From the IMG/VR virus record IMGVR_UViG_3300008448_000874, positions 1 to 20,207 of that record: a stretch of DNA of 20,207 bases. One strand, written 5' to 3'. Under the pieces are notes generated by a model. The model did no database searches and had not been told where the DNA came from. It saw nothing but the letters and a program-made list of their open reading frames with translations. The position numbers and the translations under genes are program-made. Every line of letters starts with the position of its first letter. The first letter of the stretch is position 1. Positions 1-18,241 of the stretch are shown piece by piece. This stretch comes from a virus.

Positions 1-39
1 CCCAACTGACTCCATCCGATCCTAAACTTCAAACGAAGG

Positions 40-1104
40 ATGTCAATGACAAACAACGAAGACGCATCAGCTGCCTTCAGCTCAACTTCTAATGAACGTC
101 CATTGGAAGTTAACCCGGATCCAGCAACTACAGATCCATTTGCAACTCCAGAAGCCGAAGCTCCTATTATAGAAATCAATGAACCAATCAACCTACGTCC
201 AGACCTCAACCTCATCGGCATTGAGGAAGTAGATCGAGGCATTTGCGAAGACACGTTCGAGAACCGACAAATCCTACGTCGTGCGAAGTTCAACTGGATC
301 CCAGTCTACGCAACCAACGGAGTTCCAACGGGACTCATCCAGGCAATATCTCACGAGATGGCAACCGAGAAACGTATAATAAGCCTTGCCGAGAAAAAGC
401 CCATCCTCACAGACCCAACGAACAAAAACTCTGATTATATAACTGGCTACGATCTTCTAGCTGAAGAAGCTGCGGACTATATCGTTCCGCCTTGGGTCAT
501 TGGAGCTACCAGGGCCTGGATCAAAGAACAAACGGAGCCCGTTAGAAGTTCAAGAAGGAAGCCTGCTGCACTTCCTACTCGTTGTACGAACGTCAAGGAT
601 GACGGAATTCGATGCCAACTCTGGTCTTCGGGACGTCTGCAAGATGACGGGCTTTGTCGAATTCACCTCAGGAGTGTGAAGCATCGTCCAGGTGATGACA
701 TCGAACGAGCTCGTCAGAAGTTATTCCAGGCAGCTCCATACGCCGTCGACGTTCTCGAAGATATGATGTCCAACGCAGAAAGCGAACCGGTAAAACTTAA
801 AGCCGCCACCGAAATTCTTGACCGAGCCGGAGTCCGCGGAGGAATGGAAATTGACACGAACGTTTCGTTGGAAGTTAGGCCTGCAGCTAGCATCATCTCC
901 GAACGTCTGAACAAACTTGCAACAAACGCAATCGAAGCAGCAGCAAGATTGAATGAGGCTGGGATCCTGGTAACTTCTAACGAAGTTGAACCGATGAGCA
1001 CAGTCGATGCATCCGGTAAAACTTCTAACGAACTTGATTCGAACATTGTCGACGCTGAGCTCATTTCGGATGACGCACAGGAAGGAAAGGTAACGGATGA
1101 GTAA
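40..1104 (+). CDS. Terminase small subunit-like zinc-finger protein
   Basis: The product is 354 aa from ATG 40. ATG 46 is an alternative with better spacing from GAAGGA, and an in-frame stop at 7-9 shows the gene starts inside the window. Residues 1-50 are acidic and low-complexity. A zinc-knuckle follows: C182, C192, C206 and H209, with a GxRC...LCRxHL pattern. Then comes a helical stretch (about 220-265: AAPYAVDVLEDMM...LKAATEILDRAG) of the kind seen in small terminase and related DNA-binding proteins of actinophages. If so, it would recognise phage DNA for packaging, but no large terminase lies downstream, so the role is inferred. Several segments (STSNE, VTSNE, KTSNE) are simply the translation of the 13-bp repeat. 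The next gene overlaps by 8 nt. It could also be another DNA-binding structural or regulatory protein. Confidence 0.6.
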   Translation: MSMTNNEDASAAFSSTSNERPLEVNPDPATTDPFATPEAEAPIIEINEPINLRPDLNLIGIEEVDRGICEDTFENRQILRRAKFNWIPVYATNGVPTGLIQAISHEMATEKRIISLAEKKPILTDPTNKNSDYITGYDLLAEEAADYIVPPWVIGATRAWIKEQTEPVRSSRRKPAALPTRCTNVKDDGIRCQLWSSGRLQDDGLCRIHLRSVKHRPGDDIERARQKLFQAAPYAVDVLEDMMSNAESEPVKLKAATEILDRAGVRGGMEIDTNVSLEVRPAASIISERLNKLATNAIEAAARLNEAGILVTSNEVEPMSTVDASGKTSNELDSNIVDAELISDDAQEGKVTDE

Positions 1105-1303
1105 CGATCCCAAACTTCTAACGAAGGCACGCGAACTTGCAGCTCAGCTCGCTGCAGACGTCAACCAGGCGTCCACTAGACTAGAACATATAAGACTAAC
1201 CGCCAGAGCAAACGAAGCAGCGCATTTGCTTCAGGATCTGGAGAAACTTCTAACGACGGGAGAGATTGATGACGAAGAGGACGAACCGCGAAGCATTTCT
1301 TAA
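1097..1303 (+). CDS. Small helical hypothetical protein between TerS-like gene and lysin
   Basis: A 68-aa protein starts at ATG 1097 behind a strong AAGGAAAGG ribosome site, overlapping the upstream stop by 8 nt, so it is translationally coupled. It is almost wholly alpha-helical in character (Ala/Leu/Glu heptads about residues 6-52) with an acidic tail. Two KLLT segments (residues 6-9 and about 51-54) are each encoded by a copy of the 13-bp repeat. I recognise no family. Position and size would suit a small lysis or morphogenesis accessory, but it has no membrane segment, so it is not an obvious holin. Confidence 0.6.
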   Translation: MSNDPKLLTKARELAAQLAADVNQASTRLEHIRLTARANEAAHLLQDLEKLLTTGEIDDEEDEPRSIS

Positions 1304-2039
1304 AGAGGCCGCAGCACACTGCGGGTATCAAGTTCGAATGAACAACCCATCCGTTTACAGTATCAAGTTAGGGTACCCTAACAAAAGTTGGAGCGGAGCT
1401 TTCATTGACGTTGTTGCACGAACCGTTGGGCTGAATCTCCCATCGCATCTGAACACGGCCAGCGCGCTGAGCTACTACTTCCAACGAGGACAAACTCACG
1501 TACGACCGAAACCAGGAGACATCGTCTTCTTCAACTTCTCACAGGACTCCGATCAAGGTATGCCACACTGCGGAATCGTTACCGACGTCAACCACTTCGC
1601 AAAGCACGGCATGTTCCAGTGCATCGAGGGCCAAACTTCTAACGGAACTCCAAAAGGAAGTTCAGCCAACGATGGCGTCTACAGACGAAACCGATATGTT
1701 TACGAAGTACTCGCCTTCGCGCGGCCAAACTTCAAACGAATGTTCATTGAAAGTTTGGACGACGGCAGCTCAGATCCGGCAAAACTTCTAACGAAACCGT
1801 CCGTTATTAAACACGGGCTTCAGCATGCGTACGTGATTCCGATTCAACTTGCGTTGTCTGTAGTTGTTGGACTCCGCGGAGCAAAACGAGGCGAGTGGGA
1901 CCACAAGACTGCAGCTGCCTTCGCAAACTTCCAACGAAGAATTGGATACCTGGGAGATGACGTCAACGGACTTCCTGACATTCACAGTGCAAGACGTCTG
2001 TCCACAGAGGCAGGAAATCTTTTTAAAGTTATTGATTGA
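1269..2039 (+). CDS. CHAP-like endolysin with peptidoglycan-binding C-terminus
   Basis: The product is 256 aa from ATG 1269, six nucleotides after GGGAGA; an in-frame TTG at 1266 is less likely. The gene overlaps its upstream neighbour by 35 nt. Residues about 8-125 look like a CHAP/NlpC-type amidase-endopeptidase: a WSGAFID segment (41-47) where the family has its WC-nucleophile motif, KPGDIVFF (about 81-88), and PHCGIV with the candidate catalytic H100. In that alignment the nucleophile cysteine is replaced by S42. Residues about 185-250 resemble a PG_binding_1 repeat (LRGAKRGEWDHKTAAAFANFQ). The likely role is cell-wall cleavage at lysis or a virion-associated wall hydrolase. Four 13-bp repeats lie inside the gene, in all three codon phases. 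Loss of Cys makes classical cysteine catalysis doubtful. Confidence 0.72.
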   Translation: MTKRTNREAFLKEAAAHCGYQVRMNNPSVYSIKLGYPNKSWSGAFIDVVARTVGLNLPSHLNTASALSYYFQRGQTHVRPKPGDIVFFNFSQDSDQGMPHCGIVTDVNHFAKHGMFQCIEGQTSNGTPKGSSANDGVYRRNRYVYEVLAFARPNFKRMFIESLDDGSSDPAKLLTKPSVIKHGLQHAYVIPIQLALSVVVGLRGAKRGEWDHKTAAAFANFQRRIGYLGDDVNGLPDIHSARRLSTEAGNLFKVID

Positions 2040-2942: not shown

Positions 2943-3232
2943 TGGTTAATTTTCAAAAAGTAGAAGAAGCTCTCGAAGAAGCACAAGGAATTGCATGGGA
3001 CTCATGCCACAAGATCTATGTGCTACTAGATAAAGAGCAAGTTTCTATAATGCGCATTTACGAGTACGAGTACGTGTACGACACCGAAGACATGTCAAAA
3101 GAAGAAATGCTTGACAGGCTTATAGAATGGTATGACGATTCCTGCAACCTAAGGTTTATTCAATCAATCCGAACCGATTACGTAGAACCGAATGACGGTT
3201 TTGAAGATTTGATTGAACAATTTGCTGAATAA
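2942..3232 (+). CDS. Acidic hypothetical protein, 96 aa
   Basis: Coupled to the previous gene through another TAATG junction. The protein is acidic and mixed alpha/beta, with a repetitive YEYEYVYDTEDM stretch around residues 40-52 and no recognisable motif. Its stop lies only about 10 nt before the run of A that opens the terminator hairpin, so it is the last gene of this operon. Confidence 0.6.
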   Translation: MVNFQKVEEALEEAQGIAWDSCHKIYVLLDKEQVSIMRIYEYEYVYDTEDMSKEEMLDRLIEWYDDSCNLRFIQSIRTDYVEPNDGFEDLIEQFAE

Positions 3233-3241
3233 CAATTCAGT

Positions 3242-3279
3242 AAAAAACTTCCCCGCCTAAACAGCGGGGATTTTTTTTA
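3242..3279 (+). terminator. Rho-independent terminator
   Basis: A perfect CCCCGC (3251-3256) / GCGGGG (3264-3269) stem with a 7-nt loop, preceded by A6 and followed by T8 (3271-3278). It separates the 2079-3232 operon from the repeat-rich gap. Confidence 0.93.
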
Positions 3280-3310
3280 TCCGCACGAACGCGCGGATTA
3301 TTTCTCCTCG

Positions 3311-3475
3311 CATCCCGTCAAACTTCTAACGAAGCTCGTTAGAACTTCCACCATCCGGAAAACTATTCCAGCACACTGGAGCCGGTAAAACTTCCAACGA
3401 AACCGATTAGAAGTTGCACCAGGAAAATCCGGCCGCATCGGCTAACTTCCAACGAACTTCATCAGAAGTCAGGAA
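3311..3475. repeat. Intergenic cluster of inverted 13-bp repeat pairs
   Basis: This 300-base gene-free gap (3233-3532) contains three paired units of the repeat. At 3321-3344, TTCTAACGA and TCGTTAGAA form a perfect 9-bp stem with an AGC loop. At 3389-3415, AACTTCCAACGAA faces GATTAGAAGTT. At 3444-3467, AACTTCCAACGAA is followed by CAGAAGT. Units are about 55-65 bp apart, with CCGG nearby in each. No gene is visible. Candidate roles are protein-binding array, replication or packaging site, or structured RNA. Confidence 0.85.
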
Positions 3476-3498: not shown

Positions 3499-3526
3499 TT
3501 GACTTTTTCAACCGAACCGATAGAGT
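3499..3526 (+). promoter_or_regulatory. Leaderless-type promoter for 3533
   Basis: TTGACT (3499-3504), 16-nt spacer, TAGAGT (3521-3526), six nucleotides, then ATG 3533. No Shine-Dalgarno is present. Confidence 0.6.
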
Positions 3527-3532
3527 ATAGGT

Positions 3533-5981: not shown

Positions 5982-6005
5982 TAAAAAAGAAAGTTGAGGA
6001 CACTA

Positions 6006-7037
6006 ATGATAAATACAACACAAAGTCTAAATGACGAACAAAAAGTAGCGTTAGACAGAATAAACGCTACCGAGAAACTACACGAAAAACTGCCAACTAT
6101 GTTGGTAGCAGTATCAGCTCAAAAGGTAAATGAAACTGCCAATGAGCAACTAAAATCAAATCTAAGCAAATCTGGAACGCTAACAATGCGTAATTCCGAG
6201 GACAAAAAGAAAGTCGTGAAAACAAAAATGGCAGAAACGCTAACTTCTGAAAATGCTATCAAGCGACCTAATGGCGAGATGTATTACACTCGGACTTGGG
6301 GCGAACACTCGGACACCGAGGTTCTGAAAAAACTGCGTGGTATTAGTCAATACGCTTTACTTTATGGTGAGGCTGGTTGTGGTAAAACTGCTCTGGTTGA
6401 GGCTAGTTTCGGTGAGGAACTTTATACAATTCTAGGATCAGGCGATACCGAGGTTGGCGATTTAGTCGGTTCTTATGTCCAAACTCCAAGTGGAAACTTT
6501 GAGTGGATAGACGGACCTTTGGTAAAGTCAGCCGAAAATGGTGGCGTATTGCTAATTGACGAGGTTGGACTTATTGACCCGAAAGTTATGTCGGTTGTTT
6601 ATTCCCTGCTTGACGGAAGAAAAGAGCTTGTAATCACTTCTAACTTGGATAGGGGAACAATAAAAGCAAAAGAGGGGTTCTTTGTAGTTGGTGCTACTAA
6701 CCCTAATGCCCCCGGAGTTGTTTTATCAGAGGCATTACTCTCACGCTTTACAGCACAAGTGGAACTGACTACCGATTGGTCGCTTGCTAAGAAGTTAGGT
6801 GTCCCTGCGATTATCGCTACTGCTAGTCAGAACTTAGCCAAAAAGCGTATCTCTGGCGAAATCTCTTGGTCGCCACAAATGCGAGAAGTATTAGCGTTTA
6901 GAGATTTAGAGATCGCCTTTGGAACGAAATGGGCAGTAAGCAACCTAATCGCCATAGCACCTGAACTAGATAGACCTATTGTTGCCGAGGTTCTATCTAG
7001 GGTTTATGGCGAGGAAGTAAAAACTGCTAAAATCTAG
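6006..7037 (+). CDS. MoxR/CobS-like AAA+ ATPase
   Basis: 343 aa from ATG 6006, five nucleotides after GAGGA; a TTG at 5994 is in frame but lacks support. The AAA+ core follows a charged N-terminal segment (1-90). It has Walker A GEAGCGKT (121-128), Walker B LLIDEV (D185, E186), sensor-1 GATNPN (N232), and an SRF arginine-finger candidate (R247). The fold type is AAA_5/MoxR, as in CobS of aerobic cobaltochelatase and phage relatives. These ATPases remodel partner complexes together with VWA proteins, and the next gene encodes exactly such a partner. A role in cobalamin metabolism is not implied; remodelling or maturation of a phage or host complex is the safer inference. Confidence 0.9.
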   Translation: MINTTQSLNDEQKVALDRINATEKLHEKLPTMLVAVSAQKVNETANEQLKSNLSKSGTLTMRNSEDKKKVVKTKMAETLTSENAIKRPNGEMYYTRTWGEHSDTEVLKKLRGISQYALLYGEAGCGKTALVEASFGEELYTILGSGDTEVGDLVGSYVQTPSGNFEWIDGPLVKSAENGGVLLIDEVGLIDPKVMSVVYSLLDGRKELVITSNLDRGTIKAKEGFFVVGATNPNAPGVVLSEALLSRFTAQVELTTDWSLAKKLGVPAIIATASQNLAKKRISGEISWSPQMREVLAFRDLEIAFGTKWAVSNLIAIAPELDRPIVAEVLSRVYGEEVKTAKI

Positions 7038-7050
7038 GCTCTGTGTCCTG

Positions 7051-7108
7051 CCTAAGTTTTAGCTTAGGGGGTAGAAATCCTTTTTCTTGTTTTCAGATTT
7101 CTACCCCC
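7051..7108 (+). terminator. Double hairpin, probable terminator or attenuator
   Basis: The first stem is CCTAAG (7051-7056) / CTTAGG (7063-7068). The second is a perfect 13-bp stem, GGGGGTAGAAATC (7067-7079) / GATTTCTACCCCC (7096-7108), around a pyrimidine-rich loop. The two stems share two bases, so they partly compete. The placement between the ATPase and VWA genes, just before a new promoter, suggests partial termination. Confidence 0.65.
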
Positions 7109-7114
7109 GACAAC

Positions 7115-7143
7115 TTGACTAACTAAATAAACAAGACTAGATT
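7115..7143 (+). promoter_or_regulatory. Promoter for the VWA gene
   Basis: TTGACT (7115-7120), 17-nt spacer, TAGATT (7138-7143), followed by a GAAAGGAAAA ribosome site and ATG 7173. Confidence 0.7.
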
Positions 7144-7172
7144 TATAGATACGACAACTGAAAGGAAAATAA

Positions 7173-9041
7173 ATGTCGCACTTTGGTAAGAACGAACTTG
7201 GCGTAAAGAAAACTCCTAGTGAGTGGCTAAAAGTTGGTAAGTCTGTTGGTGAATTGGCTAACAAGTGGTCGGGTAGAACTGACCTAATTGCTTATGTAGG
7301 TGGCGAAATGAAAGCACCCGCACCTGCTCTATTTGACCCTGCTAGTGCCGAGATAGAAGTGAATAATGAAGTTTGCTTTGGCAGTTTGCCACCGACACTT
7401 ATTCCCGATTTGTCTGATCCTGAAAATCACTATGACTTTCCAAAAGGCGTAGGTGCTATTTTCCACGAGGCACTCCACGCTAAGTATTCTCGCTGGTCTA
7501 TGGAACTAGCAAGTAAAGAACTAAATGGTAAGCAATACAAAGCTCTCAACTTCTTAGAGGAAATCAGAATTGAGGCGTTTGGTTCTAGGGAAATGCCAAC
7601 TAACAAATACTTCTTATCTGCTTGTGCCTTGGAAATTGTCTTAGGTGATGATAAGGCAGAGGACAAATTAGGGTCTATTGCTTTATCTGGAACTCGCTAT
7701 GTAGCAAAAATGGCAACCCTAATTCTAGGTAGGGTAGATGTCGGTATCTTGGAACTTTCAGATGTTCCTGAATTGGCAAAACTAATTGAGGGCAAGTTGG
7801 GAACTGACCTTGTAGAGAACCTAAGAGAACTTTGGATAAAAGCATCTTTACACTCTGATCACGATAACGCTGAAAAACTTTATCCACTAGCTATTGAGTG
7901 GGACAGGTTAGTTTCCGAAAAGGAAAAAGAAAATGGCGAGGGTGGCACTTGTGGCTATCCGTCAGGCGAGGGCGATGACGAGGGCGAGGGCGAGAACGAG
8001 GGCGAGGGCGAGGACAAGGACAAGGGCGAGGGTAAAAGTAGCAGTAGAGAAAAAACTATTGAGGAAATCCTTGCCGAGATAGAAAAAGCAAAAGAGAACA
8101 CCGAACTAACTGCTATTGAGAAACTTAGTAAGCAACAAATAGATAAGTTTTGGAAAGATACAGGCAAAGCAAGGGCAGATAAGTCTGCCGAAAAAGCAGA
8201 ACACAAGAAGTCAAGTCAGCGTGTATTTGGCGAACCTGAAACTGATAAGGGTTCTGGCTCTAACTCTAAGTTGGTAGAAGTTAGAAAACCTACTGCTAGT
8301 GAAAGAGCTAGTGCTGTTCTAATCTCTAAACTTTGGGCAAAAGCAAAATACAGAAACAGAACTGAAACTAGGATCACTTCGGTAATGCCAAAAGGTCGCT
8401 TGCGTAGTCGGGCAGTTGTTCAGCGTGAGGCTCTGAAATCTAAGGGCGTATTTACTCCTGTGGAAACTTGGAAATACAAAACTCGCAAGCATACCGAAAC
8501 TCCTAACTTGTCTATCGGAATTATGGTAGATGTTTCAGGCTCTATGGGTTCTGCTATGAAACCTATGGCTACTACTGCTTGGGTTCTAAGTGAGGCTGGT
8601 AGGCGTATCCAAGCGAGAACTGCTATGGTCAATTTCGGTTCAGGCGTGTTTCCAACTCTCAAAGTCGGGCAACGCTTAGATGAAGTAAATGTCTATTCTG
8701 CTAATGACGGAACTGAAAAGTTTGATTTGGCGTTTCAGGCTCTAAACGGACAACTAGAACTGCTAGACGGAAAAAGTGCTAGGTTGCTAGTTGTTGTTTC
8801 TGACGCTTGCTATACTGCCGAGGAAATCAACGCCACTAAGCATTGGCTCTCTCGGTGTATGAAATCTGGCGTAGGTGTTCTATGGATCACTTACGAGGGG
8901 GGACATTATGTAAAAGCTGTTTCTGCTGGAACTGATACCAAGATAGTCAAGGTCGGAAACTCCATAACCGAAGTTGCCGAGATAATCGGGAAACTAGGGG
9001 CAGAGGCTCTTACAAGTGCTAATGCGAAACAGGGTAGATAA
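7173..9041 (+). CDS. CobT-like VWA-domain protein with HExxH motif
   Basis: 622 aa. Residues about 90-135 contain IFHEALH (H98, E99, H102) followed by LEEIRIE (E130/E134), a metalloprotease-like zinc site also seen in degenerate form in CobT-type proteins. Residues about 265-300 are an acidic Gly/Glu-rich linker, and 300-350 is charged and helical. The C-terminal VWA domain has an intact MIDAS: D453-x-S455-x-S457, T514 and D544. VWA proteins of this kind pair with MoxR/CobS ATPases, and the ATPase lies immediately upstream. The likely role is metal-dependent partner binding, with possible proteolysis by the N-terminal domain. It has its own promoter. The GC-rich GAGGGCGAG repeats at 7960-8030 encode the linker. 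Confidence 0.88.
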   Translation: MSHFGKNELGVKKTPSEWLKVGKSVGELANKWSGRTDLIAYVGGEMKAPAPALFDPASAEIEVNNEVCFGSLPPTLIPDLSDPENHYDFPKGVGAIFHEALHAKYSRWSMELASKELNGKQYKALNFLEEIRIEAFGSREMPTNKYFLSACALEIVLGDDKAEDKLGSIALSGTRYVAKMATLILGRVDVGILELSDVPELAKLIEGKLGTDLVENLRELWIKASLHSDHDNAEKLYPLAIEWDRLVSEKEKENGEGGTCGYPSGEGDDEGEGENEGEGEDKDKGEGKSSSREKTIEEILAEIEKAKENTELTAIEKLSKQQIDKFWKDTGKARADKSAEKAEHKKSSQRVFGEPETDKGSGSNSKLVEVRKPTASERASAVLISKLWAKAKYRNRTETRITSVMPKGRLRSRAVVQREALKSKGVFTPVETWKYKTRKHTETPNLSIGIMVDVSGSMGSAMKPMATTAWVLSEAGRRIQARTAMVNFGSGVFPTLKVGQRLDEVNVYSANDGTEKFDLAFQALNGQLELLDGKSARLLVVVSDACYTAEEINATKHWLSRCMKSGVGVLWITYEGGHYVKAVSAGTDTKIVKVGNSITEVAEIIGKLGAEALTSANAKQGR

Positions 9042-9103: not shown

Positions 9104-9433
9104 ATGAGTGAAAACTGCCAAGACCCGAACCACGATCACGAAAAGGGGCAAGACCTAATGGAAGTAATTGCCGAGCTGGAAACGACAGAGGAAATTGCTG
9201 GACTTGCTATCCAAATCTTCTGTGCTATGGCTACTACTGCTGTAAATCTGGAAATGCCTAATCCGTTCTTTCACCGAGCATTTGAGCCTTACAAAGCATT
9301 AGCAGAGAAGTTAGGTATTCAGGAAATTACTGATCTAGTAATTACAACTGAAATGGAACACACATCAGCAATAGAGCTAATGGCTTCTCAACTTAGACAC
9401 CCTGCTTTCAGAAAAAAGAGGGGTAAGAAGTAA
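9104..9433 (+). CDS. Hypothetical helical protein, 109 aa
   Basis: The N-terminus has a possible metal-binding NCQDPNHDHEKG segment, followed by three to four helices (MEVIAELETTEEIAGLAIQI, AFEPYKALAEKLG, SAIELMASQLRHP) and a basic tail (FRKKRGKK). The sequence is not recognised. The stop overlaps the next ATG by one base (TAATG), so expression is coupled to the Api92-like gene. Confidence 0.7.
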   Translation: MSENCQDPNHDHEKGQDLMEVIAELETTEEIAGLAIQIFCAMATTAVNLEMPNPFFHRAFEPYKALAEKLGIQEITDLVITTEMEHTSAIELMASQLRHPAFRKKRGKK

Positions 9434-10236
9434 TGCCAAATTGGGTCTATAACAAAGTAGAGATTTCTGGCTCTAAAACCGATTTGTTGGAGTTTGCTAA
9501 CAAAGCTAAACAGCAACACGAAACAAATTATTTATCTGATACTTGGATAAAGAACGCTGACGGAAACAATGTAAAGAACGAGGACAGGAAAAACGAAAAG
9601 AACATAAGCGAACCTTGTGATCTGTCTTTCTGGAACTTTGTATCGCCTAAGCAAGAACTACTAGATACTAACGAGTATTGGGGTAGAGAGGACTTTCCCG
9701 AAGGTTGTTGGTATCAGTGGAACATAGATAATTGGGGAGTGAAGTGGGACACATCAGGATCAAGCTTAGAAACTATCTTAGACAAGTTAGGCGAAACCGA
9801 CACGATAATCTATCGCTACGATACAGCTTGGAGTATTCCCTATCCTGCTATGGAGGCTATGGTAGAGCAACACCCGAACTTAGAGTTTCAGTTTTATTGC
9901 GAGGAGGAACAAGGTTGGGGGGCAGAGTTTCTTGGCGTAGAGGGGGAACTCAATGAAACTAGATCTTGGGAAATACCGAGTTGCCACGCTGACTATGTTG
10001 CTAATGGTAGTGAGGATAGTTGTATTTGTGCCAATGATGATGACGAGGAAAGTTGGTATTCTGACTGCCCTAAACCTGTTCAGCCTTACAAGGTTGTAAT
10101 CAGAACCGATTACTCGGTTATGGCTAGTGATCCTGCGAAAGCTTATGAGAGCATTACAGAGAACCTAGAAGTATCAGATAATACTTTCATAGAAGTATTT
10201 GACGAAACAGGAAATAAGGTTTATCCTGTGTTATAG
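9433..10236 (+). CDS. Api92/DUF1281-like protein (YubB ferredoxin-fold)
   Basis: 267 aa beginning MPNWVYNKVEISG, the hallmark start of this phage and plasmid family. Further family features are FWNFVSPKQEL (about 67-77), NWGVKWD (about 100-106), and a YDTAWSIPYPAMEAM...HPNLEFQF block followed by EEQGWGAEFLG. The family has a ferredoxin-like fold and no established biochemical function. A C-terminal extension (about 215-267), rich in Asp/Glu then beta-like, is probably an extra domain. It is translationally coupled to the upstream gene, and three tandem hairpins follow the stop. Confidence 0.8.
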   Translation: MPNWVYNKVEISGSKTDLLEFANKAKQQHETNYLSDTWIKNADGNNVKNEDRKNEKNISEPCDLSFWNFVSPKQELLDTNEYWGREDFPEGCWYQWNIDNWGVKWDTSGSSLETILDKLGETDTIIYRYDTAWSIPYPAMEAMVEQHPNLEFQFYCEEEQGWGAEFLGVEGELNETRSWEIPSCHADYVANGSEDSCICANDDDEESWYSDCPKPVQPYKVVIRTDYSVMASDPAKAYESITENLEVSDNTFIEVFDETGNKVYPVL

Positions 10237-10370: not shown

Positions 10371-10416
10371 CTCTCACCAGAAAAGAAGTTAGTAAATGAC
10401 GAAAGGAAAGTGTCTA

Positions 10417-10701
10417 GTGTTATTTAGAACAGCGTTATCTTGGGTGATCTCTGAATACCGGAAAGAAACAAGATACACTCTTAGGCAGATGATCAACAAT
10501 ACCAAAGCCGTAATCTCTCACAACTACCTATGGGAAGTAGAGCAGGGCAAGAAACAGCCTAGTAGTGAATTGTTAGAGGAAATTGCTAAGGCTATGGGAA
10601 TGAACACAGCCGAGCTTGTTATCAAAGTTGGTATTTGTATGGCAGGTGGAGTTCCAGATTATCCACCGAAAGAGCTTGACGAAACTTTGGTAAATCTATA
10701 A
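10417..10701 (+). CDS. XRE-family (ClgR-like) regulator
   Basis: 94 aa from GTG 10417, chosen because a GAAAGGAAAG ribosome site (10401-10410) sits six nucleotides before it. ATG 10396 is in frame but would put that site inside the gene. The helix-turn-helix covers about residues 20-60: TLRQMINNTKAVISHNYLWE then VEQGKKQPSSELLEEIAKAMGM. The wording YLxEVEQGKKxPSSELL is close to actinobacterial ClgR-type regulators of Clp protease genes. The likely role is sequence-specific DNA binding controlling phage or host promoters. The target is unknown, and ClgR orthology is not claimed. Confidence 0.75.
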   Translation: MLFRTALSWVISEYRKETRYTLRQMINNTKAVISHNYLWEVEQGKKQPSSELLEEIAKAMGMNTAELVIKVGICMAGGVPDYPPKELDETLVNL

Positions 10702-17980: not shown

Positions 17981-18010
17981 GAATAAGTGCCGATGAAACG
18001 AGGTGAGAAA

Positions 18011-18241
18011 ATGGCAAGAACTAAAAAGGTTGATACTTGGACTTGGTTTATTTCTAAGTATGAGCAACAGGGCTACAAGTCCCTAAATCAGTTTGCTATC
18101 GCAACAGGCTTACAGAAGTCTAGCCTGAGCCGATACTTTCACAAGCAACGACAAATCCCGTCAGGTATGATGGCTACTTTATGTCGTGAGCTGGAAGTTT
18201 CACCTAACGAACTGATGATCGCATTAGGCGAGTGGAAGTAG
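18011..18241 (+). CDS. Small XRE-like HTH regulator
   Basis: 76 aa from ATG 18011, four nucleotides after GAGGTGAG; in-frame GTG 17987 and ATG 17993 are alternatives. The helix-turn-helix spans about residues 25-65: SLNQFAIATGLQKSSLSRYFHKQRQIPSGMM, then LCRELEVSPNELM. It resembles phage Cro/repressor-size XRE proteins. The two identical palindromes at 18345 and 19114, placed at promoter start sites downstream, are plausible targets. Its own promoter is unusual in having a weak -35. Confidence 0.78.
   Translation: MARTKKVDTWTWFISKYEQQGYKSLNQFAIATGLQKSSLSRYFHKQRQIPSGMMATLCRELEVSPNELMIALGEWK

Follow-up and report, generated by a model that had tools for sequence, protein, structure and literature searches.

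Genes and repeats at the left end of the window

The window, meaning the whole 20,207-bp viral record analysed here, is 99.98% identical to part of a 30.9-kb contig (G001, its near-identical twin) and is a fragment of a ~135-kb phage whose nearest named relative is Actinomycetia phage DSL-LC01. Its left end carries a terminase-small-subunit-like gene (ORF1), a short ORF2 and an endolysin gene, together with repeated copies of a 13-bp word, AACTTCNAACGAA. The features are as follows.

1-23, plus strand: loop remainder and right arm of a hairpin upstream of ORF1, whose loop (TCTC|CCC) is conserved; the first base of the window lies inside the loop
25-37, plus strand: exact word in the ORF1 leader, overlapping the ORF1 ribosome-binding site, ~27 bp from the hairpin loop
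40-1104, plus strand: ORF1, terminase-small-subunit-like, 354 aa, with four words at ≤1 mismatch; homologous to gene 1 in the Microbacterium phages Cece and Big4
84-111, plus strand: bipartite element, word with one mismatch (84-96) and inverted half (99-111)
864-876, minus strand: exact word, antisense in ORF1 at SLEV; common to G003, replaced in G025 and in wordless relatives
972-984, plus strand: exact word, VTSNE
1020-1032, plus strand: exact word, KTSNE, in a lineage-specific ORF1 linker
1097-1303, plus strand: ORF2, 68 aa
1113-1125, plus strand: exact word, KLLTK, near the ORF2 start
1245-1257, plus strand: word with one mismatch
1266-2039, plus strand: endolysin, CHAP/NlpC-like (PHROG endolysin families)
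1634-1646, plus strand: word with one mismatch, QTSNG block
1728-1755, plus strand: exact word (NFKR) and inverted half
1783-1795, plus strand: exact word, KLLTK, in a variable endolysin linker
1926-1938, plus strand: exact word, NFQR, a substitution within a conserved protein block
3246-3280, plus strand: hairpin resembling an intrinsic terminator, followed by the array and including a T run, as read from the sequence
3321-3347, plus strand: array unit 1, AACTTCTAACG-N5-CGTTAGAACTT
3389-3415, plus strand: array unit 2, AACTTCCAACG-N5-GATTAGAAGTT
3444-3470, plus strand: array unit 3, AACTTCCAACG-N5-CATCAGAAGTC
3500-3530, plus strand: promoter-like TTGACT...TATAGG, 3' of the array and belonging to the next operon, likewise a sequence reading

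ORF1 has 24 relatives in IMG/VR; its structure prediction (pLDDT 57) is too poor for use. With the patterns used, no bacterial relative of the endolysin was found. Further downstream, a pair of genes for a MoxR-like AAA ATPase and a VWA-domain protein (5994-9041) is conserved in all relatives examined, including DSL-LC01.

Eleven exact matches to AACTTCNAACGAA are present in the window, eight at 25-1938 (starts 25, 864 on the minus strand, 972, 1020, 1113, 1728, 1783 and 1926) and three at 3321-3456 (starts 3321, 3389 and 3444), with none 3' of 3456. The earlier note had described about a dozen copies within 2 kb, inside genes and in both orientations, and none in the remaining 16.7 kb. The cluster holds up, with eight exact copies in place of a dozen, or 11 at ≤1 mismatch. 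Most of the 5' copies do lie inside genes, the exception being the copy at 25-37 in the ORF1 leader. Reverse orientation is represented by the one exact copy at 864-876 and is otherwise weak, several other reverse matches in the window being imperfect inverted partners of forward copies. The supposed absence from the rest of the stretch is contradicted by the three exact copies at 3321-3456, which lie between genes. At ≤2 mismatches the window holds 24 matches, where dinucleotide shuffles average 3.4 and reach 8 at most, and an unbiased gapped k-mer repeat search ranks the word first in the window, in L138 and in L157. AACTTCNAACGAA was not found printed in the literature searched.

The exact copies reproduce the repetition in three codon phases noted earlier: the word reads TSNE in phase 2 (972 and 1020), KLLTK in phase 1 (1113 and 1783) and NFKR or NFQR in phase 0 (1728 and 1926), and the copy at 864 occupies the antisense frame (SLEV). 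An extension to CCGG(T/C)AAAACTTC, also claimed for several copies, is found at 1020, 1783 and 3389.

Selection acts on the DNA word

Shuffling the codons of the three genes, with protein and codon counts kept, yields a mean of 0.53 exact words against 7 observed; the codon-shuffled control proposed in the earlier note thus fails to give similar counts. At residues conserved with G003, third codon bases are kept at 34/34 positions in words and at 295/471 (63%) outside them (Fisher p=3e-7); the corresponding figures for G025 are 27/30 and 282/456 (p=0.0014). Because shuffled controls, third-position conservation and recurrence in relatives agree, the word is shown to be real and under selection as DNA, whatever peptide it encodes. 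The suggestion that selection or insertion acts on the nucleic acid stands as regards selection; insertion is not general.

Codon alignment with wordless relatives reveals both routes by which copies could be placed. The NFQR, SLEV and QTSNG words arose via substitution in conserved blocks, NFQR and QTSNG aligning gap-free, and some other copies lie in variable, lineage-specific linkers of ORF1 and the endolysin. Some peptide blocks, such as FQR, are conserved in wordless relatives too.

Word clusters in related phages

Circularly assembled relatives carry 28, 23, 15, 20 and 15 copies of AACTTYNAAYGRA per genome, where an order-4 Markov model predicts 0.26-0.58; a genome-wide count of this kind had been proposed at the outset. 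In the closest circular relatives of the window, 80% of words fall within 8.4 kb (G003) and 8.3 kb (G025); the spans are 15 kb in G008 and 19 kb in G033 and G031. The carriers form two clades, G003/G025/G008/L139/L157/L142 and G033/G031/G032/G035/G037/G030, the second group having been found through the dyad pattern. Word variants follow clade, with AACTTTTAACG favoured in L139, L157 and L142. Clusters are absent from L145-L159, DSL-LC01, Cece and Big4. Since the wordless phages L145-L156 fall between the two clades in the ORF1 tree, this tree requires the word to have been gained or lost at least twice; its strongly supported branches alone are still compatible with a single origin.

Other repeats occur in these phages. 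L145 (898-9282) and L146 (10423-19323), both wordless, carry ACATGGAAAA-N6-ACCCTTT in both orientations, within ORF1, the endolysin gene and intergenic DNA. Intergenic repeats around TAACGGCTTG(C/T)GTTA lie 3' of the endolysin gene in L150 (3963-4199) and L156 (11966-12337), in the place that word arrays occupy in other phages, and were not recovered in the blind search. L153 (10941-12675) has four ACGGCCCGC copies around ORF1 and the endolysin gene, with a different HTH gene (9193-9471) upstream of ORF1. Dense AGCTCAGCTC-type repeats share G008 33833-34254 with three words, and ~17 copies of a motif around CTAAAGATGTTATA, probably a phage promoter, are present among small early genes of DSL-LC01 (22606-43306).

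A bipartite element with intergenic arrays

The word forms the strong half of a longer element, in which a weaker inverted half (CRTTNRAAGTT-like) follows an 11-bp core. Spacers to the inverted half are mostly 4-9 (range 3-9), with a peak at 5-6, and are never 0-2, 10 or 11 at the score used. The two halves do not covary across 27 sites (236 pairs observed against 237.2 shuffled, p=0.78), which favours protein contacts on the double helix over folding of a single strand. The copies are most likely protein-binding sites on duplex DNA, with a candidate for the reader described below; of the options listed in the earlier note, binding sites for a phage protein best fit a dyad that lacks covariation. 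In relatives, 27/142 words have TCCNG in the 16 nt on their 5' side and 1/142 in the 16 nt on the 3' side, the background being 4%.

Arrays of 2-5 units, ~50-70 bp apart, occupy the intergenic region 3' of the endolysin operon in the window, G003, G025, L139 and L157, and in the first three of these the array sits between a terminator-like hairpin and a promoter-like sequence. One word immediately follows a TTGACA hexamer on its 3' side in G003, G025 and L139. Words run along the transcription of their host genes in G003 (18 same, 4 opposite) and G025 (15 and 4), but the right part of G033 has nine copies antisense to or between plus-strand genes, several of them just 5' of small genes. Enrichment of -10-like hexamers 3' of words in G033/G032/G035 is marginal (p=0.04); promoter overlap in G033, convincing by eye, was set aside on this test.

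The word cluster surrounds a probable genome end

In cultured Cece and Big4, the ORF1 homologue is gene 1, starts 62 bp from the physical left end and lies within direct terminal repeats, which are exact and measure 18,079 bp in Cece and 17,669 bp in Big4; in Cece the gene is annotated as terminase small subunit. The word cluster is placed at the inferred genome end because ORF1 homologues begin these repeats. A hairpin with loop (C)CTCTCCCC precedes ORF1 in nearly every relative, its stem sequence varying with pairing kept, and is single-copy in word-bearing and wordless genomes (L136 ~3210-3260, G003 25534, DSL-LC01 20644). This hairpin is perhaps the terminase cut region, and its counterpart at 1-23 of the window would mark the physical end of the present phage or be close to it. 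The phage has a large genome and is a freshwater actinobacterial one, and the word surrounds its probable genome end.

Words concentrate at the hairpin: 25/28 in G003 and 21/23 in G025 lie within 6.5 kb of the loop (2.2-2.6 expected), and G003, G025, G033 and the window each have one at a distance of 27-28 bp. Around the loop, orientation is mostly minus leftward and plus rightward.

Many IMG/VR contigs with ORF1 end ≤2 kb upstream of it (39 bp in the window, 6 bp in L158, 449 bp in L145), as expected if the physical genome end lies there. The DSL-LC01 record (OQ999401.1) annotates 127932-128171 as terminase small subunit and leaves its ORF1 homologue (20691-21644) hypothetical.

Candidate readers

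Members of both word-bearing clades have an HTH_17/MerR-like gene immediately 5' of ORF1, in tandem form in G003, G025, L139, L157 and G035 and single in G008, L141 and G033. Most wordless relatives yielded no such gene (G018/L153 give a weak match); the association is confounded by kinship, as the carriers comprise only two clades. The AF2 model of the tandem protein (pLDDT 80; the L138 copy is encoded at 9272-9709) contains two winged HTH units, whose closest PDB folds are BldC, Pukovnik Xis and RacA, each a single domain matched with weak E-values. By co-occurrence and fold, the tandem HTH_17/BldC-like protein is the best candidate reader of the word.

Three other candidates were rejected. 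An XRE-type HTH protein (window 10396-10701) is also present in wordless phages, and a Cro/C1-type (XRE-type) HTH protein (window 17987-18241) was not found in the G033 group. Serine-resolvase res sites fit poorly with the distribution of PF00239, which is present in G003, G025, G008 and wordless DSL-LC01 and missing from word-bearing G033 and G031. The protein at 17987-18241 is 77-82% identical in G003, G025, G008 and G006, above most small proteins there, and was not found in DSL-LC01.

Regulation, packaging and other readings

The best reading, which we hold tentatively and rate somewhat short of probable, is that the words are operator and stoperator-like sites of a phage regulator that sets expression of the terminus-proximal terminase and lysis genes. 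Each word would be the strong half of a 26-31-bp bipartite site, AACTTYNAAYGRA plus a weaker inverted half NRTNNRAAGTT, with the inverted arm beginning 4-9 bp past the 11-bp core and often TCCNGG upstream of the word. A sequence-specific duplex-DNA-binding phage protein, the tandem HTH_17/BldC-like protein that most carriers encode upstream of ORF1 being the best candidate, would read the site. Bound at promoters, and in the array that separates the terminator of the endolysin operon from the promoter that follows, it would act as at an operator; bound inside genes, it may form an orientation-dependent, stoperator-like roadblock. Expression of the terminase and lysis genes near the terminus would be set by this binding.

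Regulation would account for the promoter-proximal and array copies and for the coding-strand bias in G003 and G025. Against it alone, the location of the cluster at the genome end is left unexplained, and words towards the right of G033 run against the plus-strand genes there, unlike those in G003. The candidate regulator faces the further point that G001, the twin of the window, has no HTH_17 gene beside ORF1 in the ~31 kb known, most of that genome being unseen. No integrase (PF00589), ParB_N (PF02195) or ParA (PF13614) is found in G003, G025, G008, G033, G031 or DSL-LC01, and so there is no evidence of a prophage state for a repressor to maintain; DSL-LC01 has been called lysogenic by a published lifestyle predictor (PMC10611076).

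Packaging or terminus marking is the main rival, doubtful as it stands, and accounts for location better than regulation does. Here the words would mark the genome end, so that terminase, with ORF1 as small subunit, or a DNA-bending partner cuts the concatemer and starts packaging there. The position of the cluster on either side of the probable genome end gives this role a better motivation: the ORF1 homologue is the first gene inside the direct terminal repeats of Cece and Big4, words gather within 6.5 kb of the loop with one copy 27-28 bp away and strands diverging from it, and the window itself begins inside the loop. Yet L145-L156 and DSL-LC01 share hairpin and ORF1 and lack words, and Cece and Big4 have no such words either, although a packaging site would be expected in all relatives sharing the terminase. 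Between word-bearing and wordless phages, ORF1 keeps 60-65% identity and shows no obvious switch of reader. The sites also cover 8-20 kb, and we know of no pac or cos region of such extent.

Partition or nucleoid-organising sites (parS-, matS- or ram-like), at which a DNA-bridging protein folds or tethers the phage genome, are a quite unlikely explanation. The clustered, dispersed and phase-blind layout in and between genes resembles such systems, and the HTH model has a likeness to two proteins that coat or organise DNA, RacA and BldC. Gene content speaks against the partition site proposed in the earlier note: neither ParB_N nor a ParA-type ATPase (AAA_31) is found in five word-bearing genomes, and the 145-aa HTH protein has no visible coiled-coil anchor. 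ParABS and integrase-based lysogeny were rejected, having no matches in the genomes searched. The proposal of a DNA-uptake word is not borne out, as the copies cluster in one phage region and bacterial genomes show no clusters; a dyad scan of 84,980 species' genomes returned 18 stretches with one match each, and such isolated single dyads likewise led to the rejection of a host uptake word or prophage.

A REP/RPE-like element, meaning a short mobile palindrome whose insertions are tolerated whatever the frame, is improbable. It would suit the copies in lineage-specific linkers of ORF1 and the endolysin and the arrays of 3-5 units in one intergenic region, but the NFQR, SLEV and QTSNG copies arose by substitution in conserved blocks, third positions are strongly constrained, and units diverge outside contact positions. 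An insertion element is disfavoured accordingly, the gene alignments showing substitutions in place of RPE/REP-type insertion.

Still less probable is an RNA-level signal, be it an mRNA hairpin or a motif for an RNA-binding protein or antisense RNA, even though copies lie mostly on the coding strand, form inverted repeats and in one case overlap the ORF1 ribosome-binding site. Compensatory changes between the halves are not seen and no Rfam match exists, and on these two grounds a hairpin was rejected; nine copies in G033 are antisense to or between plus-strand genes. Coding coincidence, in which the DNA word merely follows conserved peptides such as the FQR block kept in wordless relatives, has next to no chance, being refuted by the codon shuffles and third-position test, by three different peptides and codon phases, and by the intergenic copies.

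A broader reading is one that we consider unlikely as a whole: the phage family would embed a dispersed, phase-blind code in its terminase-small-subunit and lysis genes to mark the genome end, a tandem BldC/RacA-like reader would couple late transcription or DNA folding to packaging, and related clades would have lost the code or swapped words. The word plainly shows a non-coding signal that prevails over codon choice in phage genes, using three frames simultaneously and conserved across a large family of uncultured actinophages, and codon-level analyses of word-bearing genes will be biased. Since it ties the array of sites to both a terminase-small-subunit-like gene and a probable genome end, control of packaging or late transcription becomes testable in direct-terminal-repeat actinophages.

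Comparison with known systems

Operators and stoperators of Cluster A mycobacteriophages are described for L5 gp71 and the TipsytheTRex repressor (PMC9283540, PMC6550527), the stoperator being a 13-14-bp asymmetric site without dyad symmetry (PMC6550527). The present words resemble them in numbering 20-30 short asymmetric sites per genome, some in promoters and, in G003 and G025 though not in the right part of G033, mostly along transcription, and in the drift of consensus between related phages. In Cluster A a protein with two DNA-binding domains reads the asymmetric site; here the tandem HTH protein is a candidate for that part. Cluster A stoperators are spread genome-wide, mostly in short intergenic spaces and promoters, and lack a dyad, whereas the present words are clustered, largely intragenic and in many copies accompanied by an inverted half at spacers 4-9; unlike temperate Cluster A phages, these phages yielded no integrase or parABS. 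The layout is similar and the defining features fail, and the word is therefore not filed as a member of that class.

The cluster, around a terminase-small-subunit-like gene at the probable end of the direct terminal repeats, would have this setting in common with cos/pac and direct-terminal-repeat phages, including Cece and Big4. It differs from cos/pac sites in comprising 15-28 copies over 8-20 kb, and cultured homologues and wordless relatives manage without it. Rickettsia palindromic elements and REP sequences are palindromic repeats that occur within coding regions in several frames, as the word does, but the phage word is no inserted unit, many copies having arisen by substitution with only contact positions kept. 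The matS/MatP, ram/RacA and BldC-type sets consist of many short sites in one genome region served by small DNA-binding proteins. Like them, the word provides many short, phase-blind sites confined to one region; those sets are chromosomal, whereas here a phage carries sites of unrelated sequence.
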